DNA of 64,000 nucleotides from Fibrobacterota bacterium (GTDB lineage Bacteria; Fibrobacterota; Fibrobacteria; UBA11236): positions 1-64,000 of the forward strand of contig JAEKLQ010000042.1 of NCBI GenBank assembly GCA_019509785.1, read 5' to 3'. The notes beneath the pieces are model-generated. The model did no database searches. It worked only from the letters and a program-made list of their open reading frames with translations, and was not told the origin of the DNA. Shown here in pieces: positions 24,464 through 45,775 of the stretch. Position 1 is the stretch's first letter. Each line of letters opens with the position of its first letter. The position numbers and the translations under genes were made by a program.

Positions 24464-24690
24464 TTGGACGCCATTGCCAAGGAAAACCTGGTCGAGATCC
24501 GGAAATTGGATTGTTATAAATGCCTGCTGAATTACGTGGAGACGGAAAATGGGCTTAGCGTCCTGGAGGCTTATGAAAGGCCGGAGGAAATCAAGGGCCT
24601 GGGCATAACGGCCCGATACCGGATCGCCATCCTCATCCCTCCGGAAAGGCTCGACGCTTACAAATTCTTAGAGAACGTATACCGGAACAA
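24464..24690 (+). pseudogene. fragment of a STAS/SpoIIAA-like-type small protein
   Basis: An open frame of 93 codons (to 24745) with no ATG and no ribosome site; the first possible start is a TTG. The first 75 residues look like real protein (LGITARYRIAILIPPERL, YKFLENVYRN), resembling the end of a small-protein family whose members continue with an arginine-glycine strand. After residue about 75 the frame runs into the antisense of the GH8 gene and becomes low-complexity. I read it as a remnant cut at both ends. Confidence 0.4.
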
Positions 24691-27842: not shown

Positions 27843-27858
27843 TGGCACCGGTGTTGCT
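27843..27858 (+). promoter_or_regulatory. sigma-54 promoter of the cytochrome-kinase-regulator operon
   Basis: TGGCAC, five bases, TTGCT: a full match to the -24/-12 consensus with GG and GC ten bases apart. It lies 82 bases before the cytochrome start and would make the NtrC-type regulator gene autoregulated. Confidence 0.85.
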
Positions 27859-27939: not shown

Positions 27940-28392
27940 ATGCTAAAGAGGGGGAAGCGTTGGTTTATCCTGGCGGCGGCGGCGAGCTTGATTCCGTTGG
28001 CCTGCAACAAAAAAGAGGCCCCCGCCGGCGGAGGCTCCCAAGACGCGCCCGCGGCCCTCTCCAAAGGGGTCGGGCCCATCCAGTCGGTTTCCGTAGGCGC
28101 GGTGGACGAAGCCCTGGTCGCAAAGGGCCAGCAGATCTTCACGACTACTTGCGCGGCCTGCCATAAGCTCGATCAACGTTTGGTGGGGCCGGCCCTGGGG
28201 GGCGTGACCAAGCGCCGTTCGCCGGAATGGATCATGAACATGGTGCTCAACTCCGCCGTCATGACCCAGCAGGACGCGGATGCCAAGGCCCTGTTCGAAG
28301 AGTACAAGGTGCAGATGTTGTTACCGAGCCCGCTCAAGGAAGAAGACGCGCGGGCGGTGCTGGAGTTCCTCCGCAAGGGCGACGGGACTTGA
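27940..28392 (+). CDS. monohaem cytochrome c lipoprotein 2
   Basis: A 150-residue lipoprotein (lipobox LAC) with one haem site CAACH and the same GPALGGVTKRR and WIMNMVLN motifs as the cytochrome that heads the nos operon. The two share most of the sequence from SKGVGPIQ onward. ATG 27940 has GGAAAGGG upstream; a GTG at 27928 is also in frame. Followed after six bases by the histidine kinase, so a cytochrome and a signalling pair share one operon, which could link electron flow to gene control. Confidence 0.9.
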   Translation: MLKRGKRWFILAAAASLIPLACNKKEAPAGGGSQDAPAALSKGVGPIQSVSVGAVDEALVAKGQQIFTTTCAACHKLDQRLVGPALGGVTKRRSPEWIMNMVLNSAVMTQQDADAKALFEEYKVQMLLPSPLKEEDARAVLEFLRKGDGT

Positions 28393-28398
28393 CCAGCC

Positions 28399-29403
28399 AT
28401 GCGCGATAGGCTGCGGCGGATGCTAGGGCGGAAATTCCCCTCCATCCGCCTCAAGTTCACGTTATCCATGTCGGCAGCCATCCTGCTCTGCGGGGTCCTG
28501 GCGTTCCTGGCCGCGTGCCCCTTTCTGAGGCATGCTTCCGCCGCCGGCGACGCGCAGCAACGGTTGGTCGAGTTCCAATGCATCATCGCGGGCCTGATCC
28601 TGGTTTTGATCGGGGCGACGATCGCCGTTTCCCTGGTCTTCTCGAAATTCATCTCGAACCCCATCCACATGGCCACCCAAGGCAAAATCCTGGAGACGGA
28701 AAGGTTGGCCAGCATGGGGACCTTGGCTACGGGCCTGGCGCACGAAATCAACAACCCCATCGCGGGCATCCAGATGTGCCTGCGGCGGATCCGGAAAGGG
28801 CGCAATCTCGATCCCCGGCAGGAGGAATACCTGCTGCTGATTTCCGAAGCTACCGATCATATCAAGTGCGTGGTGCAGGATCTCCTCGCCTACGCGCAGG
28901 AGAAGGATCAGGAAAAGACGGAGACCGACCTGCGTTCCGTGCTCGCCGATGCCGCCAAGCTGGTGCAGCCCCGGCTGAACCGCAACCAAATCCTTTTGCA
29001 TTTGAGGGTGCCCTCCTTCCCCTGCGAAATCCCGGGAGTCAAATCGCGCTTGGTGCAGGTGATCGTGAACGGGATCATCAACTCCATCGACGCCATCGGC
29101 GACGACGGGAACATCTGGGTGAGCCTTCGGAAACACGCGACGGGATTTTGCATCGCGGTGGAGGACGACGGCCCCGGCATCGCGCCGGACATCGCCGCCA
29201 AAGCCTTCGAACCCTTCTTTACGACCAAGGGGAAGAAAGGCACGGGCCTGGGATTGTACGTCTCCTTCGGGATCATCCTCGCCCATCACGGGCGCATCGA
29301 GTTCCGGGCCCGTAAAGCGGGCCGGGGCGCCCTCCTCGCCGTCGAATTTCCCGACCGCCAGAGAGCCGGAGGGGCGCTTGCGCATTCTCATAGCCGAGGA
29401 TGA
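28399..29403 (+). CDS. sensor histidine kinase
   Basis: A 334-residue kinase with two membrane helices (about 22-42 and 60-82) and only about 15 periplasmic residues between them, so it probably senses in the membrane or through a partner. HisKA with phospho-His115 (GLAHEINNPIAG) and HATPase_c with N, D/G and F/G boxes (NGIINSIDAI, EDDGPGIAP, GKKGTGLGLY). It resembles NtrB/ZraS-type kinases. The end overlaps the regulator gene by 26 bases, so they form a two-component pair. Confidence 0.92.
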   Translation: MRDRLRRMLGRKFPSIRLKFTLSMSAAILLCGVLAFLAACPFLRHASAAGDAQQRLVEFQCIIAGLILVLIGATIAVSLVFSKFISNPIHMATQGKILETERLASMGTLATGLAHEINNPIAGIQMCLRRIRKGRNLDPRQEEYLLLISEATDHIKCVVQDLLAYAQEKDQEKTETDLRSVLADAAKLVQPRLNRNQILLHLRVPSFPCEIPGVKSRLVQVIVNGIINSIDAIGDDGNIWVSLRKHATGFCIAVEDDGPGIAPDIAAKAFEPFFTTKGKKGTGLGLYVSFGIILAHHGRIEFRARKAGRGALLAVEFPDRQRAGGALAHSHSRG

Positions 29404-30754
29404 GAAAAGCCTCCGCCTGGCGCTGGAGGACGAGCTGCGCGAAGCCGGCTTCAAGGTCGAGGTGGCGTCCAGCGGCGAGGAAGCGATCGCCAAGCTCGCG
29501 GCCGCGGAATACGATCTGGTGGTCTGCGATCTGATCATGGACGGGATCGGGGGTAAGGAGGTCTTGGACCACGTGAAGGCCCGCCATCCCGGCACGGCCT
29601 TCGTGCTGATGACGGCGCATGCGACCATCCAATCGGCCATCGAGATCCTGAAGCGGGGCGCGATGGATTATCTGCGCAAGCCCTTCGAGATCGAGGAACT
29701 CCTGAAAATCATCAGCCAGGTGAAGGAGACCATCCGGGTGAGGGGCAAAGCGGCCGGGAGCGCGGAGGCATGGCCGGGCTCGCGCAGCTTCGGCAACATG
29801 TTCGGCCGCTCGCGGGCCATCCGCGAAACCTTCCAGCTCGCATCCGTCGTGGCCGGCACCGACGCCGCCGTGATGATCATCGGGGAGACCGGCACGGGCA
29901 AGAACATGCTGGCGGAAGCGATCCACTACGAGAGCAACCGTCGCAACCATGCTTACATCACCGTGAGTTGCGCCGCCCTGTCGCGGGAATTGCTGGAATC
30001 GGAATTGTTCGGGCACGAGAAAGGGGCCTTCACGGGATCGGCGCGGCAAAGGAAGGGCCGTTTCGAATTGGCCCATAAAGGCACGCTATTCCTCAACGAG
30101 GTGGACGACATCCCCATGGAAACGCAAGGGAGATTGTTGAACTTCATCCAGACCGGGAAATTCGAACGCGTCGGCGGGGAAGACACCTTGCATACCGACG
30201 TGCGCATCATCGCCGCCACCAAAAAGGATCTCCTTAAGCAGGTGGAACGGGGGCTGTTCCGGCAGGATCTCTACTATCGCCTGAACGTGTTGCAGATCCG
30301 CCTGCCGCCCCTGCGCGAGCGCCCCGAAGACGTCCCCATGCTGGTCGAGTTCTTCCTGCGCAAGTATTCCCTGGACCGCAAACTGAGCGTGTCCCCGGAA
30401 ATCATGGACATCCTAAAAGGCTACCCCTGGGAAGGCAACGTTCGCGAGCTCGAGCAAGTGGTGGAGCGGCTGGTCCTTCTCAACCGGGACGGGGCCATCG
30501 ATCGCTCCGCCCTGCCCGCGGCCATCCTCGAATCGGCCGAGCATGCGCCGGGCTTCGGCTGGGGGCGCAGTTCCTTGCCCGACTATATGGACCGGATGGA
30601 AGAGTCGCTGCTGAAGGACGCGCTATGCAAGTGCGGGGGTAACAAACGCGATACGGCGGCCTTGCTGAAGATCCCCCTCCCCACCCTGAAAAGCAAGCTG
30701 GCCAAGTTCCACCTGGGCAAATCGGAGGAAGGGGATAACGGCGAAGTCCTTTGA
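29378..30754 (+). CDS. NtrC-type sigma-54 response regulator with altered Walker B
   Basis: A 458-residue regulator: receiver (1-115; phospho-Asp51, Thr79, Lys101), AAA+ domain (about 140-375) and a Fis-type DNA-binding helix pair (about 415-450). Walker A GETGTGKN (169-176), the sigma-54 contact loop GAFTGS instead of GAFTGA (216-221), and Walker B LFLNE with Asn240 in place of the usual Asp. Arg fingers in the later part look intact. The start is TTG 29378 with GGAGG five bases upstream. Likely activator of the sigma-54 promoters found in this window; whether the altered ATPase works normally is unclear. Confidence 0.92.
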   Translation: MRILIAEDEKSLRLALEDELREAGFKVEVASSGEEAIAKLAAAEYDLVVCDLIMDGIGGKEVLDHVKARHPGTAFVLMTAHATIQSAIEILKRGAMDYLRKPFEIEELLKIISQVKETIRVRGKAAGSAEAWPGSRSFGNMFGRSRAIRETFQLASVVAGTDAAVMIIGETGTGKNMLAEAIHYESNRRNHAYITVSCAALSRELLESELFGHEKGAFTGSARQRKGRFELAHKGTLFLNEVDDIPMETQGRLLNFIQTGKFERVGGEDTLHTDVRIIAATKKDLLKQVERGLFRQDLYYRLNVLQIRLPPLRERPEDVPMLVEFFLRKYSLDRKLSVSPEIMDILKGYPWEGNVRELEQVVERLVLLNRDGAIDRSALPAAILESAEHAPGFGWGRSSLPDYMDRMEESLLKDALCKCGGNKRDTAALLKIPLPTLKSKLAKFHLGKSEEGDNGEVL

Positions 30755-32179: not shown

Positions 32180-33757
32180 TCAGGCATGCCGGGCGGCGTG
32201 CGCCCGGGTCGCCGGGTGGCGCGGCTTCACCTCGGGAACGATCTCGTAAACGATGGAGGAGATGAAGCACGTCATGATCCCGGCGATGAAGATGACGGGG
32301 CTGAAGGGCAGGAGCGGATCCAGTTTCGCATTGGTGCCGAAGCGGGCGGAAAGCAGGAACCCGACCACCACCAGGGTTAGCCCGACGACCAGGGTAAGGC
32401 CGAAGAGGAGCAGGCGTCTTACGTGGCTGGCCTTGCTCTCCTGCAGGTCTATCTGCAATAATGGCTCCTCGTGGTCAACCGTATGCAGAGGCAGGATCGG
32501 GAACACCTTCAGGAAGGTAAGGTAAGCCATGGCGCCGGCGGCTGTCAGTCCCAATACCACGCCGCATTCCACCAAAGTGGGGAAATAATAGCCGTGCCGG
32601 TAAGGCAGCAGGGTGCCGTGGGTTTGCGAAGGGATCACGATGATGAAACGTTTGGCGACGGCGGCGACGTTCACGAGCACGCCCGCCAGCACATGCAGGC
32701 CGATGCTGGTCCGTCCGCGCACGTACTGGAAGAACAGCAGAAAGAAGGACGCCAGCAGGCAACCGACCGCGGTCCAGAAATATCCGGAGTAGACCCCGGA
32801 CACGATCTCATGGGCCACTTCCTTGTCCATGGCCGGGCCGGCGTAATGGGCCGTCAGCTCTTCGACGATGATGAAATAGATGTACACCACGCACAGGATC
32901 ATCAGCATGATGCCCAGCCACTTGAAGCTTTTCTCGGTGATGGTCGCCTTCAGGTCCAGGAAATGCCTGAGCGCGGCGGCGATGATGAGGATGATGCCGG
33001 TGCCGGAAATCCCCGCCATGACCACGAATCCTGGCGCCTGCAGGGCGCTATACCACCCCGGCCGGCTGGACTGGATTCCGAAGATGAAGCCTAAGGTGGA
33101 GTGGGCCGTGATGAGCAAGGGCAGGATGAGCAGGGAAAGCCAGAAGCTGGAGTTGGCGTGGCGGTTGAACGCGTCGGGGGTGGAATTGAATCCCATCGCC
33201 CATATCCGGTAGAACAGGCGCAAGGGCCAGAACTTGGTCCGTTCGGCGAGATAGGCGGCGTCCGGACGGCCGGAGAGGAAGAAATACACGACGCTGGCGA
33301 ACAGGTAGCCGGAAATGACCAAGGTGAAGGTCCCGAAGAACGGGGACATGACGCGCGCGTAGCGGGGCAGGTTCAAGAGGCCGCTCAGGGGGCGCCCGAG
33401 ATCGGCCAGGATGCAGCAAGCCCCCAAGGACAGGGCGATGATGGTCAAGAGCTCCGCCATGCGGGCCAGGGGTTTCAGATCCTGGATCCCGAAAAGCCGG
33501 ATCATGGCCGAGATGGAAATGCCCGCGAAGCTCACGCCGATGAAGAAGACCACGAATACGATGTAGAGCCCCCAGGAGGCGCCCCCCACCCCGATGGTAC
33601 GGAGGCCGCCGACGGTTTCGCCATCGATCACCTGCCGCGAATAGGAATAGACGCCGAAGGCGAAGACGAGGAAAAGCGCTACCATGGTCGCGATCCAGGC
33701 GGGGCCGAACTTGCCGAGGCCTAGGCGGGTGGGCTTGGAGGATCCTTCGATGAACAT
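32180..33757 (-). CDS. NrfD/PsrC-type integral membrane subunit
   Basis: A 525-residue protein with about ten membrane helices of the NrfD/PsrC/HybB family, the quinone-binding membrane anchor of CISM complexes (polysulfide reductase, Qrc, alternative complex III). Start ATG 33757, five bases after the Fe-S gene stop; the open frame extends upstream into that gene. Conserved features include WGLYIVFVVFFIGVSF and FAGISISAM near the second helix and a long loop GFNSTPDAFNRHANSSFW. Last gene of the operon. Quinol oxidation at the periplasmic side with transfer to the Fe-S subunit is inferred. Confidence 0.88.
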   Translation of the reverse strand: MFIEGSSKPTRLGLGKFGPAWIATMVALFLVFAFGVYSYSRQVIDGETVGGLRTIGVGGASWGLYIVFVVFFIGVSFAGISISAMIRLFGIQDLKPLARMAELLTIIALSLGACCILADLGRPLSGLLNLPRYARVMSPFFGTFTLVISGYLFASVVYFFLSGRPDAAYLAERTKFWPLRLFYRIWAMGFNSTPDAFNRHANSSFWLSLLILPLLITAHSTLGFIFGIQSSRPGWYSALQAPGFVVMAGISGTGIILIIAAALRHFLDLKATITEKSFKWLGIMLMILCVVYIYFIIVEELTAHYAGPAMDKEVAHEIVSGVYSGYFWTAVGCLLASFFLLFFQYVRGRTSIGLHVLAGVLVNVAAVAKRFIIVIPSQTHGTLLPYRHGYYFPTLVECGVVLGLTAAGAMAYLTFLKVFPILPLHTVDHEEPLLQIDLQESKASHVRRLLLFGLTLVVGLTLVVVGFLLSARFGTNAKLDPLLPFSPVIFIAGIMTCFISSIVYEIVPEVKPRHPATRAHAARHA

Positions 33758-33762
33758 ACGGG

Positions 33763-34659
33763 TCAGCCTTCCTTTCCCTCGTTGAGGAGGGGCTTTTCCT
33801 TGCCCAGGAAGAAGACCTTGGGACGGGTTCCCAATTCTTCCAGCAAGCGCTGGGCCCTGGGACTGGCGGCCATGCGCGAGACCAGGCTTTCGGGATCGTT
33901 CAGATCCCCGAAGATGATGGCCTCCGTCGGGCACGATTGCGCGCAGGCGGGCAGCAGCCTTACGTCCTTGTCGGTGATCTCACGACCATCGATCTTGGCC
34001 TGTTCCTTCAGGTTCTTGATGCGATGCACGCAGAAGGTGCATTTCTCCACCACGCCTTCGGGCCGGGTAGCCACGTCGGGGTTCAGGGCCTGCTGATAGG
34101 TTTCCGGGAACTCCGGCTCGGTCCAGTTGAAATAACGGCGGGAGTAGGGACAGGCGACCTGGCAGTAGCGGCAACCGATGCATCGATCCCAAACCTGCGC
34201 CACGATGCCTTCTTCGGTCTGGAAGGTGGCGTTCACCGGGCAGACCTTCACGCACGGGGGATTATCGCAATGCATGCAAGGGGTGGGGCGCATCTGATCT
34301 TCGGCCCCGGCTTCGCCATTGATGGGGAGCATGGTCATCCAACTGATATCCGTGCCGGCTTTGCGGTGCGAATCCCCAGTGGTCGGAACGTTGTTCTCCA
34401 CCTTGCAGGCCACCACGCAGGCGCCGCATCCCGAGCAGAGATCGAGATCGATGGCCATGCCCCATTTCGGGACCTTGCCCGTGCGGGTGTTGATGTATCC
34501 CTTTTTCCCGTCCGGCTTGATTTCGGGGGAGGCCGCGGCAGCCGCCTTGGCCATGCCCGCCAGGGGAAGGGCCGCCAGCATCTTGAGGAAGGACTTGCGG
34601 TCCATGCCTCCCAGCTTCTCCCCTTCCGTCGAATTCGTTTTCCGGTTGAACATTTTCAT
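33763..34659 (-). CDS. four-cluster ferredoxin-type subunit (DmsB/PsrB/NrfC-like)
   Basis: A 298-residue iron-sulfur protein with four cluster motifs: CSGCGACVVAC, CMHCDNPPCVKVC, CIGCRYCQVAC and CTFC with CAQSC. The N-terminus (MDRKSFLKMLAALPLAGM) resembles a Tat leader without the twin arginine (Asp-Arg-Lys), so it may travel with the Tat-exported partner. Start ATG 34659 overlaps the stop of the molybdopterin-type gene (ATGA). It links the large subunit to the NrfD anchor. Confidence 0.92.
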   Translation of the reverse strand: MKMFNRKTNSTEGEKLGGMDRKSFLKMLAALPLAGMAKAAAAASPEIKPDGKKGYINTRTGKVPKWGMAIDLDLCSGCGACVVACKVENNVPTTGDSHRKAGTDISWMTMLPINGEAGAEDQMRPTPCMHCDNPPCVKVCPVNATFQTEEGIVAQVWDRCIGCRYCQVACPYSRRYFNWTEPEFPETYQQALNPDVATRPEGVVEKCTFCVHRIKNLKEQAKIDGREITDKDVRLLPACAQSCPTEAIIFGDLNDPESLVSRMAASPRAQRLLEELGTRPKVFFLGKEKPLLNEGKEG

Positions 34660-37055
34660 GCCTTTGCGATGCGGACGCGGGTGATGCGATTGGAGACGAT
34701 GCCGCTCAAGGGATCGAAGTGCGCGGCCATGATATGTTTGGGATTTTCCCCGCGGCCCTTGGCGAACCGGCCCATCTGGGTATGCCCCCGGCCCAACGCC
34801 ATCAGGACCACGTCGGGGGAGATTTTCTCGCGCAGCATGGCGTAAGCCTTGATCTTGCCGAGCGGGGATTCCACCCATAGGGGATCTCCCTGCCGCAGGC
34901 CCACCCGCGCGGCGGTCTCCGCGTTGATCTCGGCCCAGGATAGCCAGCTCTCCGTTCCGGTCAGGCCTTTTTGCAGGCCCGCCAGTTCCACCAGCAATGG
35001 GATGTTCTCCCCGCTGCCCTCGGCATAGGTGATGTCCTTATAGGCGAAGAGCAGCAGCGGGAAATCCTTTTCCGCGCCTTCGAAGACGGCGGGCTCGGAA
35101 TGCGGGAGGCAGGCCTCGGCCAACGCTCCCTTGCCCAGGGATTTGAGGTAAGCCTCGGGAGCGAGCTTGTTGAGGGCCGCGGAACCCGCGATCTTGGCCT
35201 CCGCCGCCGAGGAATAGAATTCGAATTTACCGGAAGAGGTGCGGAAGGCGGCCTTCCAATTCTCGGCCGGCGAAGGATCGTCGTTCCAACAACCCACCTT
35301 GGCCAGCTTCTTGAGGAAATCCGCCGGATCGTCTTCCACGATGGAGCCGCGTTTGGCGCGGGCGATACCGGAGAGGCGTTCCTCCATGGCCGCCCGGAAA
35401 TCCTTCCAAGGAAACGCCTCCGCTACCGTACCTCCCAGGTTACGGGCGATCCCAAAAATGGCGTCGCCCGAGTGCTTGGTGCCGTAGAGCGGTTCGACCA
35501 CGGGCTTGCGGATGCCGATGGTGGCCCGGAAACCCAGGGGAGGGGGCAAAGCCTCTTCCCAGCGTTCCAAGTAGGTATGATCGGGAAGGATCAGATCGGA
35601 TTCGTACGCGCTCTCGTCCATGAAGGGGGAGAAGCTGACGATGAAGGGGATCTTGGCGAAGGCCTGGCGGAACCGTTCCGGATTATTCCGGCTGAAGAGC
35701 GGATTCGCGTAGTAGAGGAACAGGGCTTCCGCCGGGTAAGGAGTTTCCGCCAATACGGATTCGGGAAAAGCGTCCGCGACCGATGAGGAGAAGGGGAAGC
35801 GCTCCTTGCCCCGCCCGTCCAAGGATGGTTTCGCCAGCCCCGCGGCGGCGATATCGTCCGGTTTCAGGCCGGCCCAATCGGCCAAGGGCAGATCCCGCCT
35901 GGCTACGATGCCTCCCGGCCTTTCCAGATTCCCGAGCAAAGCGTTCAAAGCCAAAACGGCGCGGGCGATCTCGAGCCCGTTCGACGTGGAGAGAGAACGC
36001 GCGTCCACCACCACCACCGAAGGCCTCGAGACGTGCAATTGCTCCGCCAGGCGGAGGATGCGCTCCTCGGGAATGCCGGTGCGCTCGGCGGTCGCCGCGG
36101 GGGTGTAGGCCTTGAGGACTTCCTGGAAGCGATCGAAGCCTACGGTATGGGCTTCGATGAAGGCTTTGTCGTGCCATCCCTGCTCCACCAGGATATGGGC
36201 GAGGCCCAAGGCGAGCACGTCGTAGGTACCCATCTTGCGCAACCGGATCCAATCATCGGCGATCTTGGCGGTGGCGGTGAAGTTGGGATCCACGTGGGTG
36301 ATGAAAGAGCGGCGGGTGGGATTCCCCCGACGGAACGCGCCGGTGCCGCGGGCGAAATGGATGCCGTTGCAGGTGGATTCGAAAATGCCCGAACCCAGGC
36401 TCAATAGGAAGGACGTGTGGTCGGCGTCGTAACCGGGAATTTCCGGCACGCCCATCATCAGGTCCATCGCCTGCACCAGGGCGCCTTCCCCGGCGGCCAG
36501 GGGATCGAAAAAATTAGGGGTTCCGTAGGCCGCGCAGAAGCGTTCCAACGTCTCTTTCATGAAGCCGCGCGGCCGGCCGCAGAGTACGGCGAGCTTATGG
36601 GCCTCGCCCCGGGAACGCAGCGAACCCAGGCGCTTGGCCGTTTCGGCCAAGGCTTCATCCCAGGAGATCGGTTTCCATTTGCCTTCCCCGCGCGCGCCTT
36701 CGCGCAGGAGCGGGCCTTTGATGCGGTCCGGATCGTAGAGGGTGAAGAGACCAGTCTGGCCTTTGGGCCCCAGCTTGCCGTCCACCTGGACGGATTGGGG
36801 GTTGCCGTTGATCTTCACGGCGCGGCCTTCGACCACCCGCACCATGATGCCGCAGTTGACCGGGCATTGGGCGCAAGAGGAGGCGATGTTTTTTTCCTCG
36901 CCTATGTACCATCCGTCCGCTCCGGGGACGGGGGGCTTATCGCGGGGCAGGGCGAATTCATCTTTCTTTTTGAAGCAGCCGGCGAGCAATCCCGCCGCGC
37001 CTACGGCGCCGGATATCTTGAGGAATTTCCTGCGACCGCTTTCCTTGGTGTCCAT
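34656..37055 (-). CDS. molybdopterin-oxidoreductase-family subunit, probably without active Mo site
   Basis: A 799-residue member of the molybdopterin oxidoreductase family with a Tat leader (GRRKFLKISG) and lipobox LLAGC (Cys 27), so a lipid-anchored periplasmic subunit. The N-terminal cluster motif has Cys61, Cys64 and Cys68, but the fourth cysteine is Gly96 (KLGPKG). At the place where the Mo-binding Cys, Ser or Sec would sit (GTPNFFDPLAAGEGAL) no such residue is evident. This recalls QrcB and ActB, which are non-catalytic Mo-family proteins in menaquinone:cytochrome oxidoreductases. Third gene of the five-gene operon. Confidence 0.87.
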   Translation of the reverse strand: MDTKESGRRKFLKISGAVGAAGLLAGCFKKKDEFALPRDKPPVPGADGWYIGEEKNIASSCAQCPVNCGIMVRVVEGRAVKINGNPQSVQVDGKLGPKGQTGLFTLYDPDRIKGPLLREGARGEGKWKPISWDEALAETAKRLGSLRSRGEAHKLAVLCGRPRGFMKETLERFCAAYGTPNFFDPLAAGEGALVQAMDLMMGVPEIPGYDADHTSFLLSLGSGIFESTCNGIHFARGTGAFRRGNPTRRSFITHVDPNFTATAKIADDWIRLRKMGTYDVLALGLAHILVEQGWHDKAFIEAHTVGFDRFQEVLKAYTPAATAERTGIPEERILRLAEQLHVSRPSVVVVDARSLSTSNGLEIARAVLALNALLGNLERPGGIVARRDLPLADWAGLKPDDIAAAGLAKPSLDGRGKERFPFSSSVADAFPESVLAETPYPAEALFLYYANPLFSRNNPERFRQAFAKIPFIVSFSPFMDESAYESDLILPDHTYLERWEEALPPPLGFRATIGIRKPVVEPLYGTKHSGDAIFGIARNLGGTVAEAFPWKDFRAAMEERLSGIARAKRGSIVEDDPADFLKKLAKVGCWNDDPSPAENWKAAFRTSSGKFEFYSSAAEAKIAGSAALNKLAPEAYLKSLGKGALAEACLPHSEPAVFEGAEKDFPLLLFAYKDITYAEGSGENIPLLVELAGLQKGLTGTESWLSWAEINAETAARVGLRQGDPLWVESPLGKIKAYAMLREKISPDVVLMALGRGHTQMGRFAKGRGENPKHIMAAHFDPLSGIVSNRITRVRIAKA

Positions 37056-37071
37056 CAGCGTCCGCCCCTTC

Positions 37072-37647
37072 TCATTTGTGGCAAGTGGTGCATTCCCACT
37101 CCGCCTGCTTCTGCTTGTGGCATGCCGTGCATTTGGACATGGTGAGGTAATTGATGTCGGGGACGGTCACCGGTTGGTTCACCTTGCGCATGTCCCGATG
37201 GCAATCCCAGCATTTCATCTTGCCCAAGGCGATATGCGCCCGGTGCGAGAAATAGACGTGGCCGGGCAACCTATCGACCACGACCCACGGGATTTCCTTG
37301 CCGCTTTCCAGGTACTCGCGCACCTTGGGCTCTTCGGGATCCTTACCTTGCGGCTCGGAGTGGCAATCCTTGCAGTCCTTGAGCTTGGGAAGGGTGGCAT
37401 GCACCCCCTTCTCCGCGAACTTGTGGCAGTCCTTGCAATCCATATCCTCGGCCTTGATATGGACCGCATGATCGAATCGCAAGGGCTGCTTGACTGGATC
37501 GGGCGCGAGCCCCAGCCGCGAGGCTATCGATGCCCCGGGCCCCGATGCGGCGGCGCCCGGCGTGGCGCCCTTATCGCAGCTGAGGAGAGCTACGGTCAGG
37601 GCGGCCAAGGCCATGCCTGCGGCGAGAAGGCTTTTCCAGGATGACAT
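37072..37647 (-). CDS. pentahaem cytochrome c lipoprotein
   Basis: A 191-residue lipoprotein (lipobox LLSC) with five CxxCH haem sites (CKDCH twice, CWDCH, CTACH, CTTCH) and His-rich partners (FDHAVHIKAED, FSHRAHIALGK) for bis-His ligation, as in cytochrome c7/ActA/QrcA-type subunits. It immediately precedes the molybdopterin-family gene and should carry electrons from the complex into the periplasm. Confidence 0.92.
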   Translation of the reverse strand: MSSWKSLLAAGMALAALTVALLSCDKGATPGAAASGPGASIASRLGLAPDPVKQPLRFDHAVHIKAEDMDCKDCHKFAEKGVHATLPKLKDCKDCHSEPQGKDPEEPKVREYLESGKEIPWVVVDRLPGHVYFSHRAHIALGKMKCWDCHRDMRKVNQPVTVPDINYLTMSKCTACHKQKQAEWECTTCHK

Positions 37648-37678
37648 GTCCGACTTCCTTCCCGGCTGCGGGGATCGC

Positions 37679-38080
37679 TTATTTCTTCTTGGGGACGTCG
37701 AACTTCAGATCCGATGCGAGCCATTCGGTGATCACCTTCAGATCGTCCTCGGAGCCCTTGTACTTCTTCTTATGCTTGTGGCCCTCGACCTCGACTTCCT
37801 TTTTCAGCCATTTGGCGAACCAGGCCGCATCGTGGTCCTTGCCGACCGCGGAAAGATCCGGTGGATCGATTTTCTTGCCGTTCTCATCCAAGACGGCGTC
37901 GTCGTCATCGCCATCCGACTTGACCTTGGTGATCTTGAGGGCGTCGATGGAATGGCATTGCGTGCATTTGCCCTGCTTGAACAGCTTAAGCCCGGCGGCG
38001 TCCTCCGCCTTCACGGGCGCGGCCGTCGCGCAGAGCAAGGCGATTCCCATCCCCATCGATGCCAGCGTTAACTTCAACAT
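37679..38080 (-). CDS. monohaem cytochrome c
   Basis: A 133-residue exported cytochrome (signal peptide to APVKAED) with one haem site CTQCH and an unusually acidic loop (SDGDDDDAVLDENG) followed by a lysine-rich helix (GHKHKKKYKGSEDD). ATG 38080 follows GGAGAGGACAGGA; the open frame upstream is not used. First gene of the CISM operon. The charged loops may guide docking to partner cytochromes. Confidence 0.88.
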   Translation of the reverse strand: MLKLTLASMGMGIALLCATAAPVKAEDAAGLKLFKQGKCTQCHSIDALKITKVKSDGDDDDAVLDENGKKIDPPDLSAVGKDHDAAWFAKWLKKEVEVEGHKHKKKYKGSEDDLKVITEWLASDLKFDVPKKK

Positions 38081-38657
38081 ATTCCTGTCCTCTCCTTCCG
38101 CCGGTTCCCGGCTACCACGAATAGCGTTGCTTCGATTCCGCGCTGTCGGGTTTCCCCGTCGTAATCCCAACTAGAGCAAACTTGGATCCAATAATCGGAA
38201 CGGCATTCGGAAGCGGACCGGTGGCGCTGGCTGGACCGGATTCAAGGTTGCGATCGCGCGCTAGGGCGGTAAACCAGGGGTTGTTCCTGAATTATTGGCA
38301 GCGAAGTCGGGGTCCATTTTGCCAAAGTTGCATTTGGGCCCTCCCCGACCCCGGGGAGAAGGAACGGCTGCGACTCCGGTGCGCACCTCTGTTTTCCCGT
38401 TGAAATTTCCCTGCGCGGCCGAAGAGCGGTCTGTCGCGAACGGAAGGGCGGAGCGGAATTCCTTGCGGCTTCCCCGCGATCTCACCTCCTCCTAATCGCG
38501 AAAATTCAGGATATCGGGATGAGTTCCCATCGGGCCGAAGATGAGAAATCATCCGAATCTCCCCATCCGGCCCTCGCGCTAAAACCCAATTCCAAGCGGT
38601 GTTCGAGTGCGTCGCGAAGCCCCGCATTAAGCTCGTAGGAACGAGGCGGAAACGGCT
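38081..38657. other. divergent control region between CISM and porin-cytochrome operons
   Basis: About 580 bases with no supported gene; the reading frames here are arginine- and proline-rich and lack ribosome sites. It contains a weak match to the shared dyad (TCCA, TTT, TGCC, 38313-38323). I see no clear promoter for the leftward CISM operon. Confidence 0.5.
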
Positions 38658-38673
38658 TGGCATAGCAATCGCT
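38658..38673 (+). promoter_or_regulatory. possible sigma-54 promoter of the porin-cytochrome operon
   Basis: TGGCAT, five bases, TCGCT: GG and GC are correctly ten bases apart, with one mismatch in the -12 (TCGC for TTGC). It is 34 bases before the porin ATG. No good activator dyad lies at the expected distance, so this is weaker than the three other cases. Confidence 0.45.
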
Positions 38674-38707
38674 TTCTATCGGCGGCAACCAAGGAAGGAG
38701 TAACGGT

Positions 38708-39916
38708 ATGCCATCGCGACCCTTGAGCACAGCCCTACTCATTCTCGCATCCGTCTCGGCCGCCGCGCGGGCCGACTACGTGAACGGCGCGGTATCCCTG
38801 GGCGGATATGTCCTCGACGCCAAGGACGCTCCCCACGACGGCAACGTCTACCAAATGGAGCGCATCAACGTATCGGCCCTTAAGAACGGCGTCGCCCTGC
38901 GCGCTTCCTACGGGTATTCCGATTTCTACGACAAACGCCCCAATACCTACATGAACTCGAACCGCCTCGCTTTGGCCAACGCCAGCTATACCCCGGCGAA
39001 CATGGGCTGGCTCAGCGTGGCGGCGGGCCGCGACTTCGAACCCATGATTTTCCGCTCCCTCTACTATGACGGGGGCGACTTGCGGCTCCGTTACAACGGA
39101 ATCGCGACGGCCGAACTGTTCGGAGGCTACGGAGTCCCGACCGTTTACCAAGAGAACGTGGTCGATTTCGATGGCGATAAGGCGCTCATCGGCGGCAAGC
39201 TCACCTTCGCCCCCATCTCGGCCCTGGCGATCCGCCTGGACGGCCTGGTCAACGGGACCACGGACGATGGCACGCTGGGAGAGGAAGTACAAGGCAGCCT
39301 GGGCGACCGCGTCACCTTGAACGCGAGCTCGGCGTTCCGCCTGGATTCATCGAACTTCTCCCAGGCGGAGATAGCGGCCGTAGCACGGGTACGCAGCCAC
39401 GACGAAGCCCAGATACGCTACGGCATGATCGACAACCGGATCGACTCCACCCGTACCTACGACTACTTCGTGAACCCCGAACACCAGTACCTGATGGCGG
39501 GATACACCCTGGCCGTGAACGAAGAGGCCAGCCTGGCCGTCGATTACGGCCTCATCCAGTACCGGAGATCGGGCGGGCAAAGTTTCGACGCCCGGCTCAA
39601 CGCCTACGGGGCTTTCCTCAAGGTGGGCAAGGAAATCGGGACCATCCCCAAGGCCCTGGACATGCGGCTCGGCTACGGCGGCACCTTCCAGAGCCGATAC
39701 CGGATCGACGTCTCTGCCGGCTACGTGAACTACGACGTGGACGACCAGAATACGGACCTGCGCGCCTACGACTTTTCCCTGCAACCCACCCTCCTCTTGC
39801 CCCGCGGCCTGGAAATCACCGCGGCCTATGAATTACTCCACAACCGCCTTTACGACCGCGACCATCGGTTCTTCTTCGGCGTAAAGGAAAACTTCCACCG
39901 GGGGCTCTCCAAATGA
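38708..39916 (+). CDS. outer-membrane beta-barrel of a porin-cytochrome conduit
   Basis: A 402-residue protein with signal peptide (to ARADYVNG) and alternating amphipathic strands through the whole length, ending HRFFFGVKENFHRG, typical of an outer-membrane barrel. The size fits the barrels of Geobacter-type porin-cytochrome complexes rather than the larger MtrB. ATG has AAGGAAGGAG upstream. It overlaps the nonahaem gene by ATGA and is followed by two haem lipoproteins, so it is probably the sheath through which a cytochrome crosses the outer membrane. A general porin remains possible. Confidence 0.78.
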   Translation: MPSRPLSTALLILASVSAAARADYVNGAVSLGGYVLDAKDAPHDGNVYQMERINVSALKNGVALRASYGYSDFYDKRPNTYMNSNRLALANASYTPANMGWLSVAAGRDFEPMIFRSLYYDGGDLRLRYNGIATAELFGGYGVPTVYQENVVDFDGDKALIGGKLTFAPISALAIRLDGLVNGTTDDGTLGEEVQGSLGDRVTLNASSAFRLDSSNFSQAEIAAVARVRSHDEAQIRYGMIDNRIDSTRTYDYFVNPEHQYLMAGYTLAVNEEASLAVDYGLIQYRRSGGQSFDARLNAYGAFLKVGKEIGTIPKALDMRLGYGGTFQSRYRIDVSAGYVNYDVDDQNTDLRAYDFSLQPTLLLPRGLEITAAYELLHNRLYDRDHRFFFGVKENFHRGLSK

Positions 39917-40677
39917 AGCGGATGACCTGGTCCCTCGCTGCGGCCTTGCCGACCCTGCTCTTAGGCTTGGCCCGGGGCGAAGAGGCCCACCAATTCTCCC
40001 ACACCCAGCACGTGGTGAAGGAAGAATTGCAATGCTCCGATTGCCACGCCAAAACGATGAACTCCACCACCTTGGCGGGGGCCCGCGTGGGCCTTACCCT
40101 CCAGGCCTGCGAGAAATGCCATAGCGATGATTCCGCCTTCGCCACGCCGAAGCCGATCGTCATGAAGGATTCCGCCTTCCGGATCGTCCGGATGGAAGAC
40201 CCGACCCTCAAGTTCGATCATAAGGCCCACGTCACGGCGAAGGTCCAATGCACGGCCTGCCACGGCCAATTGGTCGCGGGCGATTCCTCCGCCCAAGGCG
40301 CGCCGAAGGTGAACCTGCTGACCATGAAGAACTGCATGGAATGCCATATGCAGAAGGCCGAGGTCGCGTGCCTAAGCTGCCATACCAAGACGGAAAAGCC
40401 CCTGACCCACATGAGCGCGGTCTGGCTGAAGAGCCAGGGCCACGGGCTGCAAGCGAACCTGGGCAAGGACTGCTCCATGTGCCACGACCAGGGAGCGGTC
40501 ACCACCTGCGAGGAGTGCCATGCCGGCACCGACGCCCGCAAGGTGCATGGCCTCAATTACCGCTTCAACCATGGCGCGGACGTGCGGTTCCACAAGATGG
40601 ATTGCGCGACCTGCCATGCCCCTCTCGATCAATTCTGCGCGGATTGCCATGAAGGCAAGGGAAAGGCAGCGAGGTGA
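39913..40677 (+). CDS. periplasmic nonahaem cytochrome c
   Basis: A 254-residue exported cytochrome with nine CxxCH sites (CSDCH, CEKCH, CTACH, CMECH, CLSCH, CSMCH, CEECH, CATCH, CADCH) and regularly spaced extra histidines (FSHTQHVV, FDHKAHV, FNHGADV) for bis-His ligation. It is similar in role and size to MtrA/OmaB, the periplasmic cytochrome that inserts in the barrel. The start overlaps the barrel stop (ATGA). One haem per about 28 residues makes a continuous wire likely. Confidence 0.93.
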   Translation: MKRMTWSLAAALPTLLLGLARGEEAHQFSHTQHVVKEELQCSDCHAKTMNSTTLAGARVGLTLQACEKCHSDDSAFATPKPIVMKDSAFRIVRMEDPTLKFDHKAHVTAKVQCTACHGQLVAGDSSAQGAPKVNLLTMKNCMECHMQKAEVACLSCHTKTEKPLTHMSAVWLKSQGHGLQANLGKDCSMCHDQGAVTTCEECHAGTDARKVHGLNYRFNHGADVRFHKMDCATCHAPLDQFCADCHEGKGKAAR

Positions 40678-40682
40678 ACGTC

Positions 40683-41438
40683 ATGCGAATGCAATTGACC
40701 CAGCCGTTGACATGCGCGCTTCTGATGTTGGCGGCCTGTAGCAGGATGGACGATACCGCGAAACCGGCCGAATCGTGCGACCTGTGCCACACGGCCCCCT
40801 TAAGCCGGGATGCGGTGCATCGTATGCACTTGAGCGTCCGCGCCGTGGCCGATTTCCCCTTCGCCGACACTTCCGCGGCCGCCAAGATGGGATTCGTGCA
40901 AAGCGCCACCGATACGACTTACCGTATCAAGGCGGATCCCGGCTTCAAGTTCGTGAGCGACAGCGCCAAGAACCAGGCAATGCTCGATCAGCAGACCCGG
41001 CTTCTCGGCTACGGCATCCAATGCTCGGACTGCCATAAGGGAGTCGACGCCGGATACGTCCGCAACGACGACGCGACCCACCGGAACGGGAAAAAGGATC
41101 CGTCCTTCAACGAGGATGCCTTGCTCGCGAAGCACTACGATGCCTCGGACACGGCCCATTACCTGGCCTCGGCCCCGCGCATGTCCTTCGATGGAACGAA
41201 TTGCAGCAACATCGCCTGCCACGGAGCGGGCCGTAAGTCGCTCAAGAAGGTCGAATGGCGGACCACCGCAGCGCTCAGCGATACCCTGTCTTGCATGGCC
41301 TGCCACGACACCCGCAATCATAACGTGGGCGTGAGCTGCGAACAGTGCCATCTGGACGTGACCCTGGATGGCAAAACCATCCATAACTTCCGGAAGCATC
41401 TCAATGACACGATCAGCTACGGGATCCGGAAACTCTGA
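40683..41438 (+). CDS. pentahaem cytochrome c lipoprotein with a CX4CH site
   Basis: A 251-residue lipoprotein (lipobox MLAAC) with haem sites CDLCH, CSDCH, CMACH, CEQCH and a CX4CH site (CSNIACH), the mix found in Geobacter-type CxxxxCH/CxxCH cytochromes. ATG 40683 is preceded by GAGGTGA at ideal distance; GTG 40674 is also in frame and overlaps the previous stop. Likely on the outer-membrane surface or inner leaflet next to the barrel. Confidence 0.88.
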   Translation: MRMQLTQPLTCALLMLAACSRMDDTAKPAESCDLCHTAPLSRDAVHRMHLSVRAVADFPFADTSAAAKMGFVQSATDTTYRIKADPGFKFVSDSAKNQAMLDQQTRLLGYGIQCSDCHKGVDAGYVRNDDATHRNGKKDPSFNEDALLAKHYDASDTAHYLASAPRMSFDGTNCSNIACHGAGRKSLKKVEWRTTAALSDTLSCMACHDTRNHNVGVSCEQCHLDVTLDGKTIHNFRKHLNDTISYGIRKL

Positions 41439-41475
41439 TGCAGGTCGAACGGTTTCCTTACAGGAGAAGCGAACA

Positions 41476-42849
41476 ATGAAAAAGCTACTGGTATTGATTC
41501 TCGCAGGGGTGACCGCGATGATCCTCCTGACCGGATGTAACGTCAAAGACGGCGTCGCGGGGCCTCCAGGCAAGGACGGCACCAACGGCGCCAACGGCGC
41601 GGACGCGAGCTTGTCCTGCCTCAAATGCCATACCGATTCCAACTTCGCGGTGAAGACAGATCAGTACAACTTTTCCAAACATTCCTTCGGGAACACCCGC
41701 GCCCGTGGCGAGGCGAACCGGTTCTGCGCCCGGTGCCATACCAACGAGGGTTTCCAGGAGATTACCTGGAACGGCATGCCGTGGGCGGCCGCCGAAATCC
41801 CCGATGGCACTAAGATCCAGTGCGAGACCTGCCATAAGATGGCGGGATTCGATTTCTCGCAGGACACCATCAACGCCATATTGCGGACCACCGATCCCGT
41901 GAAGCTGAATTACAACAATCAATTCACCCTGGCCGGGTGGACCACCCAGAAGGCCACCGACTTCGCGCAGGGCGGCTCCAAGGTGAACAACCTTTGCATC
42001 ACCTGCCACCAGATCCGAGGCTCCACCTCCTTCGAGTACACGGATACGGCCGCGGGCAAGCTCGTGACCAAGTCTTTCACGCAGATGGCGTACTTCCCGT
42101 TGGGAACGGCCATCCTCCCCGGCGACACCGCGACCGTCGCCAAAGGCAACCTCAAGCAGCCCACCGATTCCGTCGCCTACATGGCGGGCCGGAGCTTCTC
42201 GGTGCATGACGGCAACCAATCCAACGTCTTCTACGGCATCAACGGCTACGACTTCGGTTCGCCCATCTCCACCGCGCCCCGGCACCATGGGAAAGACGAC
42301 TGCACCGAATGCCATATGAACGCGTGGGATTCGACGACCCATACCGGCGGCCACTCCCTGATCATGAACGTCAAGGATGAGGCCTGCGCCGCCTGCCATA
42401 CGAACCTGGAGGATACGTTGAAATTGACCCAGGCCGTCGTCGCCGCCAAGATCACCGAATTGGGCGAAGCCATGGTGAAGCGGAAGATGGCCAAGAAGTC
42501 CACCAACGCCACCACCGGCGTGGTCTCCTACACCATCCTCGCCACCCACGATTTCTACGGCAAGCTGTACTCCAACAACCCGGCCGACTCCGCGGTGACT
42601 TATGCCGGCTTGACCACAGCCAACAAGACCGATACCGCGCTGGCCATCATCAAGTACATCAATATGGTTACCTATGCGAAGGACCCCGACCTGAAAAACC
42701 GTATCGGCCGCAAGTGGACCTACGGCGAATTGGGCGCGGCCTACAACTTCGGGTTCATCAACTCTGAGCTGACGAAGGGCGCCCACAACGACGAGTACAC
42801 GAGGAAGCTCTTGCAAGCCTCCATCGATTGGCTCGCCGCGCACCCTTAA
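41476..42849 (+). CDS. hexahaem cytochrome c lipoprotein with collagen-like linker
   Basis: A 457-residue lipoprotein (lipobox LLTGC) with a short collagen-like linker (GPPGKDGTNGANGAD) straight after the anchor and six CxxCH sites (CLKCH, CARCH, CETCH, CITCH, CTECH, CAACH) in the first 300 residues. The C-terminal 150 residues are haem-free. The linker would hold the haem head away from the membrane, consistent with a cell-surface terminal cytochrome such as OmcB/MtrC, though sequence alone does not show surface exposure. ATG behind AGGAGAAGC. A strong terminator follows. Confidence 0.9.
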   Translation: MKKLLVLILAGVTAMILLTGCNVKDGVAGPPGKDGTNGANGADASLSCLKCHTDSNFAVKTDQYNFSKHSFGNTRARGEANRFCARCHTNEGFQEITWNGMPWAAAEIPDGTKIQCETCHKMAGFDFSQDTINAILRTTDPVKLNYNNQFTLAGWTTQKATDFAQGGSKVNNLCITCHQIRGSTSFEYTDTAAGKLVTKSFTQMAYFPLGTAILPGDTATVAKGNLKQPTDSVAYMAGRSFSVHDGNQSNVFYGINGYDFGSPISTAPRHHGKDDCTECHMNAWDSTTHTGGHSLIMNVKDEACAACHTNLEDTLKLTQAVVAAKITELGEAMVKRKMAKKSTNATTGVVSYTILATHDFYGKLYSNNPADSAVTYAGLTTANKTDTALAIIKYINMVTYAKDPDLKNRIGRKWTYGELGAAYNFGFINSELTKGAHNDEYTRKLLQASIDWLAAHP

Positions 42850-43790: not shown

Positions 43791-44585
43791 ATGAACACCA
43801 GCGACAAAAACTCCGCCCGCAAACGGCCCGCCCGCATCAGCAATGCCGCCCGACTGCGCATCTTCATCGGCGCCGGCCTGTTCCTGTCGGCCGCCATCCT
43901 GGTCACGAGCTGCCGGGAAGACACCAAGAAGCACAGCTTTACCGAGGTGAAGGGTTTCAACACGCCGGTGCAGAGCCAGGATATCTCCCTGCCCGCCACG
44001 CCTTCCGAAGCCCCCCCGGACATCCCGGCCCATGCCGGCTTGGCCGGGAAGATGGGCGACGGCGCGGCGATTCCCGATATCCCCGCCCATGCCGGCCTGG
44101 CCAGCAAGGCTGCCGCCGGCGCCGCCGCGCCCGCAGCCGCATCCGCCGAAGCGTCGGCCCATCTCGCCTGGCAATTGCCGAAGGGCTGGACCGCCCAGCC
44201 GGGTTCGGGCATGTACTACGCGATCATCAAGACCTCGTCCGATGCCTCCGCCAGCGAAATCGGGGTGCTCTCCCTGCCCGGCGAAGCGGGAGGGTTGCAG
44301 GCGAACGCGGAGCGGTGGATGGGCCAACTGGGCCTGAAGAACTCGGCGGATGAAGTTTCATCCCTGCTCTCCAATTCCCGCCGCTTCAAGAGCACGGGTA
44401 ACCTGGACGTTACCCTGCTCGATTTCGCTTCCGCCGTGAAGGGGGACGACGCCTCCAGCATGATGGTCGCCATCGCCAAGCCGGCCGGCGACTCTTACTT
44501 CATCAAGATGGTCGGGAAGAAATCGGTGTTGGCCAAGCACCGGCAGGAATTCGCCTCCCTCTGCAACACGCTGGTGTACGAATGA
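43791..44585 (+). CDS. lipoprotein heading the cytochrome c maturation operon
   Basis: A 264-residue lipoprotein (lipobox VTSC, about Cys 41) with a low-complexity linker containing the duplicated unit PDIPAHAGLA (about residues 80-110) and an Ala-rich stretch, then a folded domain (about 125-264, LAWQLPKGWTAQPGSGMYYA). The domain recalls small lipoproteins found next to resB in other phyla, but no function is known. ATG behind GGAGAAAG. It overlaps resB by ATGA. Confidence 0.78.
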   Translation: MNTSDKNSARKRPARISNAARLRIFIGAGLFLSAAILVTSCREDTKKHSFTEVKGFNTPVQSQDISLPATPSEAPPDIPAHAGLAGKMGDGAAIPDIPAHAGLASKAAAGAAAPAAASAEASAHLAWQLPKGWTAQPGSGMYYAIIKTSSDASASEIGVLSLPGEAGGLQANAERWMGQLGLKNSADEVSSLLSNSRRFKSTGNLDVTLLDFASAVKGDDASSMMVAIAKPAGDSYFIKMVGKKSVLAKHRQEFASLCNTLVYE

Positions 44586-45775
44586 ACGTCCCCATCCCCC
44601 GCCCCGGCCTGCGGGGCATGTTGCCTAGGCTCGCTTCCTTGCGCATCTCCGTGATCTGCATCGCGCTCCTTTTCATACTCACGGCCTGGGGCACGGTCTA
44701 CCAGGCCGAGCACGGCCTGTATGCGTCCCAGACGCGCTTCTTCCATTCCTGGTTCTTCCTGGTTTGGGGGGTGATCCCCTTTCCGGGGGCGCAAGCCGTC
44801 ATCCTCGCGTTGTTCGTGAACCTATTGGCTTCCATGGTCTTCCGGGTGAAATATTCGCTCGGGAACCTCGGCAACGTCGTGACCCATGCCGGCATCCTGT
44901 TCCTGCTGGTCGGCTCATTCATCACCTACCACTACGCGCAGGAATCCTACCTGCCGTTGGCGGAAAAGGAAGTCTCCAACGTCTCCCTCGATCGACGCGT
45001 CTGGGAGCTCGCCGCCTGGCAGGAGGCCGGGGCCGAGAGGAAGGTAACCGCCGTGGAACTGGGCCCGGACCAGGCGGGCCGGGAAATCGATTTCAGCGAG
45101 TACGGCCTCAAGGCGGTCGTCTCCAACTATTACCGCAATTGCAAGCTGGAGGAAGGCGCGGGCGCGCAGGCCGGATCAGTCAAACTCTCCCCCCGAAGCC
45201 CGGCCCAGGATCCGGAGGACAATACCGCCGGCGCCGTTCTTCGGGTCGGGAAGACGGATGGGAGCGAGCAAGAAGTCCTTCTCTACGGGGGACAGGACGA
45301 GCCCGTGCGGGTGGCGTCCGGCAACGGCGCGGTCCGCATCGCCTTGCGCCAGCAACGGCATCCGCTACCGATGACGATAAGGCTATTGGACGTGCGCAAA
45401 AAAGATTACCCCGGCACCGGCATCGCCCGCAGTTACGAAAGCGACGTTGAAGTCGAGAGCGATGGCGTGACCTTCAAGACGCGCATCTACATGAATCATC
45501 CTCTCCACTACAAGGGCTTCATCTTCTACCAATCCTCGTACGCCGCGAACGCGCAGGGCAGGGAAACCTCCGTCTTCGCCGTAGTGGAGAACCGGGGCCG
45601 GCTCGTCCCTTACATCTCCGGCGGACTGGTATTCGGGGGCATGGTCCTGCATTTCCTGATGATGCTTTTCGGATACGGGAGCCGCCCGGGGGGCAAGGGC
45701 TCCGCGGACTTGAACGGTTCCGCGGCCTCGACCCGACGCGGCCAGGGCACCCGCAAACTCGAGGTCATGAAATGA
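44582..45775 (+). CDS. resB: ResB/Ccs1-like cytochrome c maturation protein
   Basis: A 397-residue inner-membrane protein of System II cytochrome c biogenesis. Helices at about 22-42, 62-90 and 98-118 and a large periplasmic domain, then the diagnostic HYKGFIFYQSSY motif and a last helix (about 345-365). With CcsA it exports haem and attaches it to apocytochromes. It overlaps both neighbours by ATGA, so the three are coupled. Confidence 0.93.
   Translation: MNVPIPRPGLRGMLPRLASLRISVICIALLFILTAWGTVYQAEHGLYASQTRFFHSWFFLVWGVIPFPGAQAVILALFVNLLASMVFRVKYSLGNLGNVVTHAGILFLLVGSFITYHYAQESYLPLAEKEVSNVSLDRRVWELAAWQEAGAERKVTAVELGPDQAGREIDFSEYGLKAVVSNYYRNCKLEEGAGAQAGSVKLSPRSPAQDPEDNTAGAVLRVGKTDGSEQEVLLYGGQDEPVRVASGNGAVRIALRQQRHPLPMTIRLLDVRKKDYPGTGIARSYESDVEVESDGVTFKTRIYMNHPLHYKGFIFYQSSYAANAQGRETSVFAVVENRGRLVPYISGGLVFGGMVLHFLMMLFGYGSRPGGKGSADLNGSAASTRRGQGTRKLEVMK

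Follow-up and report, generated by a model that had tools for sequence, protein, structure and literature searches.

Gene content of the locus

Two divergent operons at 32180-42849 of a Fibrobacterota contig (GenBank assembly GCA_019509785.1, contig JAEKLQ010000042.1) were investigated as a candidate electron conduit across both membranes. The window, i.e. the whole stretch of DNA analysed, comprises positions 1 to 64,000 of this contig. Nine genes were confirmed at the expected coordinates and on the expected strands by an open reading frame (ORF) check. For four of them the likely start lies inside the listed ORF (Fe-S subunit 34659, NrfD 33757, monohaem 38080, 6-haem 41476).

32180..33757, minus strand: NrfD-family integral membrane subunit in the QrcD position (525 aa; PF03916, E 2.6e-23)
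33763..34659, minus strand: periplasmic four-cluster Fe-S subunit, QrcC-like (16 Cys; NCBIfam QrcC)
34656..37055, minus strand: molybdopterin-oxidoreductase-related lipoprotein, QrcB-like (PF00384, 2.8e-23; Tat motif, lipobox)
37072..37647, minus strand: pentahaem lipoprotein cytochrome, QrcA-like (5 CXXCH; NCBIfam QrcA 113.8 bits, cut-off 180)
37679..38080, minus strand: monohaem cytochrome c, first gene of the leftward operon (PF00034, 22.7 bits, cut-off 21.3)
38708..39916, plus strand: outer-membrane beta-barrel (402 aa; signal peptide; 22 strands, plug domain absent, by AlphaFold2)
39913..40677, plus strand: periplasmic 9-haem cytochrome (9 CXXCH; signal peptide-like N-terminus; cytochrome c7-type)
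40674..41438, plus strand: 5-haem lipoprotein cytochrome (4 CXXCH and one CX4CH; lipobox; PF09698 GSu_C4xC__C2xCH, 24 bits, cut-off 21.7)
41476..42849, plus strand: 6-haem lipoprotein cytochrome with collagen-like linker (lipobox; PF22113)

The haem pattern TGYNNNNNNTGYCAY matched 30 times in the window, compared with 2.4 +/- 1.5 matches expected from shuffles. Between 37078 and 42399, within both operons, 25 of these matches were located. Together with one CX4CH motif (CSNIACH) they confirm the 26 haem motifs in ten kilobases that had been counted in an earlier note, made from the sequence alone. Over 10.7 kb, the haems are distributed as 5 (pentahaem) + 1 (monohaem) + 9 + 5 + 6. The gene content given in that note was likewise borne out, for the leftward operon (NrfD, four-cluster Fe-S protein, Mo-family lipoprotein, pentahaem and monohaem cytochromes) by domains, cysteine and haem counts, and for the rightward operon (barrel, nonahaem cytochrome, 5- and 6-haem lipoproteins) by haem counts, lipoboxes and the AlphaFold2 barrel.

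The leftward operon: a Qrc-like inner-membrane complex

An unfused A-B-C-D gene set with an NrfD-type anchor is present in the leftward operon (37072-37647, 34656-37055, 33763-34659 and 32180-33757). This composition resembles QrcABCD of sulfate reducers, with an unfused multihaem cytochrome, a possibly cofactor-poor molybdopterin-like subunit, a four-cluster Fe-S subunit and an NrfD-type anchor. QrcC and QrcA were the best NCBIfam models for the Fe-S and the pentahaem subunit, respectively. The 16 cysteines of the former are sufficient for four clusters, and cytochrome c7-type domains were found in the latter. The large subunit scored 312 bits with PhsA and 292.9 bits with QrcB. None of the window subunits reached the NCBIfam cut-offs for QrcA, QrcB and QrcC (113.8/180, 292.9/440 and 273/400 bits). 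The set differs from QrcABCD also in having 5 haems instead of 6, an additional monohaem gene and a link to an outer-membrane conduit. Furthermore, hydropathy indicated 12 hydrophobic segments for the NrfD subunit, compared with 10 for QrcD, which was reported only from Deltaproteobacteria as of 2021 (PMC8076601).

In the QrcB-like subunits of three genomes, the position of the usual Mo-ligand cysteine is occupied by Glu, Asp and Glu, and the fourth N-terminal Fe-S cysteine is Gly in all three. As far as can be read from the residues, these replacements would be consistent with a cofactor-free protein, as described for QrcB (PMC13059093, PMC6303296); an acidic ligand is possible as well.

Alternative complex III (ACIII) also combines a pentahaem cytochrome, molybdopterin-like and Fe-S domains, an NrfD subunit and a monohaem cytochrome. 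The PDB relatives of the NrfD subunit are ActC chains of ACIII (E ~1e-25). Loci L070, L072 and L073 were used for comparison (L numbers denote loci). ACIII was rejected for the leftward operon: the B and C subunits, fused as ActB in ACIII, are separate here, and the operon holds no ActD/ActF gene. In the source genome (G000), contigs C70 (L070) and C38 (L071) each carry a canonical operon of ACIII and cytochrome oxidase genes. Apart from the window subunit with 273 bits, QrcC-type scores above 200 were obtained only twice in this genome, both within the fused ActB proteins of the ACIII operons (201-208 bits). By these criteria, the leftward complex resembles Qrc and is not an ACIII.

In G163 and G155, two other Fibrobacterota genomes, a monohaem cytochrome is the first gene of the Qrc-like operon, too. 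This protein is a candidate for the periplasmic carrier. A small operon with no adjoining barrel was also observed in a class-level relative (G145, L074:5649-8703). It encodes an NrfD-like protein of 550 aa and a 5-haem cytochrome, and the pattern recurs across many genomes of the family of G145.

The rightward operon: barrel and candidate surface cytochromes

An outer-membrane electron conduit consists of a periplasmic multihaem c-type cytochrome, an integral outer-membrane beta-barrel and one or more outer-membrane redox lipoproteins (PMC6148476). In the rightward operon, the first part is present with 9 CXXCH motifs and the second as a 22-strand model, and the two lipobox-bearing cytochromes with 5 and 6 haems are candidates for the third. 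The barrel was modelled with AlphaFold2 from a 14-sequence alignment (pLDDT 82.2, pTM 0.71) and has no plug domain. According to this model its lumen would be a wide hole if nothing closed it, and the 9-haem cytochrome is expected to fill it. The junctions barrel/9-haem (39913) and 9-haem/5-haem (40674) are 4-base stop-start overlaps. The 5-haem lipoprotein, the conserved third gene of this trio, is a candidate outer-membrane or surface cytochrome. For the 6-haem lipoprotein, a candidate terminal surface cytochrome, close relatives were found only in G155 (78%) and G163 (68%).

The Geobacter conduits OmbB-OmaB-OmcB and ExtABCD are also encoded in one operon with a barrel, an 8-12-haem periplasmic cytochrome and lipoprotein cytochromes, of which ExtABCD has two as well (5 and 12 haems). 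They are likened to the window by layout, not by sequence, and differ from it in phylum, in the haem numbers (9 + 5 + 6 in the window) and by the link to a Qrc-like operon. Shewanella MtrCAB shares the layout of periplasmic multihaem cytochrome, barrel and surface lipoprotein. The 6-haem lipoprotein barely passed the model for MtrC/MtrF domains II/IV (PF22113, 30.4 bits, cut-off 30.0). In contrast, the 9-haem protein remained far below the DmsE/MtrA-type decahaem model (TIGR03508, 25.8 bits, cut-off 192.2), and no Pfam/NCBIfam match of the barrel to MtrB/PioB was detected at E <= 0.1. Thus, the "MtrA-like" partner proposed in the earlier note is acceptable as a description of layout, but not of family. 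MtrB has 26 strands, compared with 22 modelled strands here. No Pfam/NCBIfam family was above cut-off for the barrel, and the PDB sequence search gave no match.

Linkage of the two operons

The genome of G163 is the metagenome-assembled genome (MAG) "Fibrobacteres bacterium RH-27jun17-228", from the same family as the source but another genus. Here, monohaem-QrcA-QrcB-QrcC-NrfD-barrel-9h-5h-6h-x-ResB-ResC are contiguous on one strand (Qrc names meaning Qrc-like; x, an uncharacterised ORF). At the family level ten genomes were compared. Close relatives of NrfD (>=58%), of the barrel and of the 6-haem protein occur in the same three of them, G000, G155 and G163; the NrfD subunit of the window is 73% identical to the G163 copy and 58% to the G155 copy. 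The remaining seven genomes have NrfD of the ACIII type only.

Both operons are preceded by sigma-54-type sites. Scoring was done with TGGCAC-N5-TTGCW, with GG and GC fixed, and a site was counted at >=9/11. These sites and the further genes of the unit are as follows.

27843..27858, plus strand: TGGCACCGGTGTTGCT, a perfect match to the sigma-54 consensus ahead of the regulator operon
27940..28392, plus strand: lipoprotein cytochrome with one haem, opening the regulator operon
28399..30754, plus strand: histidine kinase and NtrC-type sigma-54-dependent response regulator (HisKA, HATPase_c, Sigma54_activat)
38175..38190, minus strand: sigma-54-type -24/-12 site TGGATC-N5-TTGCT of the leftward operon (its core does not vary among 4 upstream regions from 3 genomes)
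38658..38673, plus strand: sigma-54-type -24/-12 site TGGCAT-N5-TCGCT of the rightward operon (G163 and G155 have perfect-consensus sites in the corresponding position)
43791..44585, plus strand: unknown protein (37% identical copies adjoin ResB in G163 and G155)
44582..47715, plus strand: ResB and ResC, system II cytochrome c maturation (PF05140, PF01578)

Sites of >=9/11 were found 13-121 bases upstream and in correct orientation for 3/3 barrels, 4/4 monohaem starts of Qrc operons and the regulator operon, while 2.2% of random 200-base strand segments hold such a site. These eight cases are not independent, because the three genomes are related. In alignments, TGGATC-N5-TTGCT (monohaem) and TGGCA-N5-TxGC (barrel) appear as conserved blocks amid diverged DNA. 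TGGCACCGGTGTTGCT is the sole perfect match in the window. A window-wide scan with 2 mismatches showed no enrichment (21 sites, 24 expected); the argument rests on position and conservation of the sites. Contiguity in G163, co-occurrence in the same genomes and the shared sigma-54 sites tie the two operons together functionally. The layout of barrel, periplasmic multihaem and lipoprotein cytochromes with a functional link to a CISM complex, as read in the earlier note, is supported by these results, and there is good evidence for the coupling of a porin-cytochrome conduit to a Qrc-like quinone module.

The functional unit reaches past 32180-42849, downstream to 43791-47715 and upstream to 27940-30754. 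ResB/ResC occupy the same position in G163 and lie beside a Qrc-like operon in G155. A related regulator/kinase pair adjoins the conduit of another Fibrobacterota genome, G154, and a related regulator is located few kilobases from the G163 cluster. We infer that the nearby NtrC-type regulator controls both operons. The regulator operon is adjoined by a glycosyl hydrolase family 8 (GH8) protein (24658-27105). Directly after ResC lies the gene of a 1427-aa protein (48053-52336) that combines nine cadherin-like domains with one of LamG type. A further cytochrome cluster was observed at the contig tail (L014:3128-11129, contig C42, about 63130 to 71130). It contains several one- and two-haem ORFs, one of them a cytochrome c by Pfam and one in which the signal peptide is followed by an FKCSQCH motif at the start.

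Distribution in the phylum

Barrel relatives were detected in 6 of 168 Fibrobacterota genomes. In all five with readable flanks an 8-11-haem cytochrome adjoins the barrel, nearly always with a lipoprotein cytochrome behind it; in the sixth, G155, the region is cut by the contig end. When a profile of the 9-haem protein was searched, 13 Fibrobacterota genomes proved to hold strong relatives (14 with G155). Conduit-type cytochromes thus occur in at least 14 of the 168 genomes, most with a verified adjoining barrel. Outside the phylum, 9-haem relatives were found in Ignavibacteria, Bacteroidetes, Kofleriaceae, Polyangiaceae (Myxococcota) and Planctomycetes MAGs, directly behind a haem-free barrel-like ORF. 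Clusters of the porin-cytochrome type have been described for Geobacter and for bacteria from six phyla (PMC4245776). In the openly licensed literature searched, no conduit paper for Fibrobacterota, Fibrobacteres or Fibrobacter was found. In this respect the trait is unfamiliar, as the earlier note had stated; with at least 14 genomes it is not a one-off.

Alternative explanations and direction of electron flow

Both operons probably form one trans-envelope electron conduit, for which outward flow is favoured. The Qrc-like inner-membrane complex (NrfD/Fe-S) would exchange electrons between menaquinone and the periplasmic pentahaem cytochrome. Via the monohaem cytochrome and/or direct contact, they would reach the 9-haem cytochrome seated in the 22-strand outer-membrane barrel, and from there the 5- and 6-haem lipoprotein cytochromes at the cell surface. 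The assembly of barrel and 9-haem protein, the surface exposure of the lipoproteins and the quinone chemistry are predicted from the gene content. Outward flow, the least certain step, would mean anaerobic respiration of an external acceptor without oxygen.

Several points weigh against this explanation. Every genome compared is a draft, for the most part a MAG. The G155 barrel has no Qrc operon upstream, in an assembly that is broken there. The best 50 Foldseek matches of the barrel in the PDB were large barrels of a generic kind (ushers, OprD-type porins), with no MtrB among them. The 9-haem model is poor (pLDDT 52) and unfit for a fold search. No multihaem protein dedicated to carrying electrons through the periplasm was identified. 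Finally, the characterised QrcABCD is an electrogenic cytochrome c3:menaquinone reductase (PMC6303296, PMC13059093).

The OprD-type matches would fit an ordinary porin, with cytochromes serving a soluble periplasmic reductase and no electrons crossing the outer membrane. We regard this as very improbable: no barrel relative with readable flanks stands without multihaem cytochromes, so that the cytochrome-free homologues that would have spoken against the earlier note were not found, the stop-start overlaps join barrel and cytochromes, and an unfilled barrel of this kind would be a wide hole.

Two separate neighbouring systems, a Qrc-like complex for periplasmic redox enzymes and an independent conduit, could be proposed since the transcription units are divergent and distinct in the source genome. 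G155 also has a second Qrc-like operon divergent from ResB/ResC with no adjoining barrel (L083:1-11008), in which two tandem monohaem genes each have their own sigma-54 site. The co-directional, contiguous cluster in G163, the occurrence in the same three genomes and the conserved sigma-54 sites before both operons make such a separation rather improbable.

The main rival is the same conduit operating inward: menaquinone reduction is the known activity of Qrc, and conduits of a similar kind support electron uptake in Rhodopseudomonas TIE-1 (PMC6148476). Electrons from outside, supplied by Fe(II), reduced organics or another cell, would feed a menaquinone reduction that is possibly energy-conserving. 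The A and C subunits score best with the Qrc family, and the three haem-copper oxidases of the genome could serve as electron sink. On the other hand, the complex is below every Qrc cut-off, the QrcA-like subunit has one haem fewer and the anchor extra membrane segments, and the polysaccharide-related genes of the window (GH8) suggest an organotroph in need of electron sinks. Inward flow is considered unlikely, though it is a serious contender. The earlier note had deduced the outward direction from menaquinol oxidation by CISM complexes; with a menaquinone reductase as closest characterised relative, this does not settle the direction.

Oxygen respiration is already covered by the three haem-copper oxidases (two linked to ACIII, the third on C55). 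Together with the polysaccharide-related genes and the need for an anoxic electron sink, this gives the outward direction a moderate preference. No NiFe hydrogenase was found in the eleven genomes tested (ten family genomes and G154), with FeFe hydrogenases outside the search. The H2-Qrc route of sulfate reducers was rejected in its NiFe form for this reason.

Same trio with other possible electron sources

In other genomes of the phylum the barrel-cytochrome trio adjoins different enzymes. NiFe hydrogenase subunits lie directly upstream of the barrel in G032 (L078:3058-8763), G003 (L012:536-5881) and probably G031 (L081). In G003 and G032, small and large subunits (PF14720, PF00374) are followed by barrel and 11-haem cytochrome (and a lipoprotein cytochrome), and the barrel gene begins at the stop codon of the large subunit or overlaps it. 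This hydrogenase is of the periplasmic type, and no membrane cytochrome b was found beside it. A route for H2 electrons to the outside, which could bypass the quinone pool, is possible from this gene order. In Geobacter, conduits adjoin hydrogenases of the Hox type (PMC6148476); the coupling of a conduit to a periplasmic-type enzyme would be another kind of arrangement. In G021, G022 and G023 (L076, L077, L075), barrel, 9-haem, 7-8-haem lipoprotein and 4-haem cytochromes precede Rnf genes for an Fe-S protein and RnfD (PF03116), which may indicate a ferredoxin-to-outside route. G154 (L009:1-10513) has two barrel-cytochrome sets and a 22-haem protein of 1075 aa beside the histidine kinase/NtrC-type pair. 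Tentatively, the trio could be a plug-in module, operon-wired to a Qrc-like complex (window, G163), NiFe hydrogenase or Rnf.

Significance

Porin-cytochrome conduits as such are known; their combination with a Qrc-like inner module appears to be new. A gene set is defined for a predicted full quinone-to-surface path with the Qrc-like complex as inner gate, and the sigma-54 signature is usable to find and test co-regulated conduit genes. If the explanation is true, a Qrc-type complex would run within extracellular respiration. Fibrobacterota are known mainly for plant-fibre degradation. Judged from its genes, the organism, an uncultured bacterium, may be able to exchange respiratory electrons with the exterior. 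The phylum would thereby gain a respiratory mode that, in anoxic water and sediment, couples the breakdown of polysaccharides to minerals, humics or partner cells.

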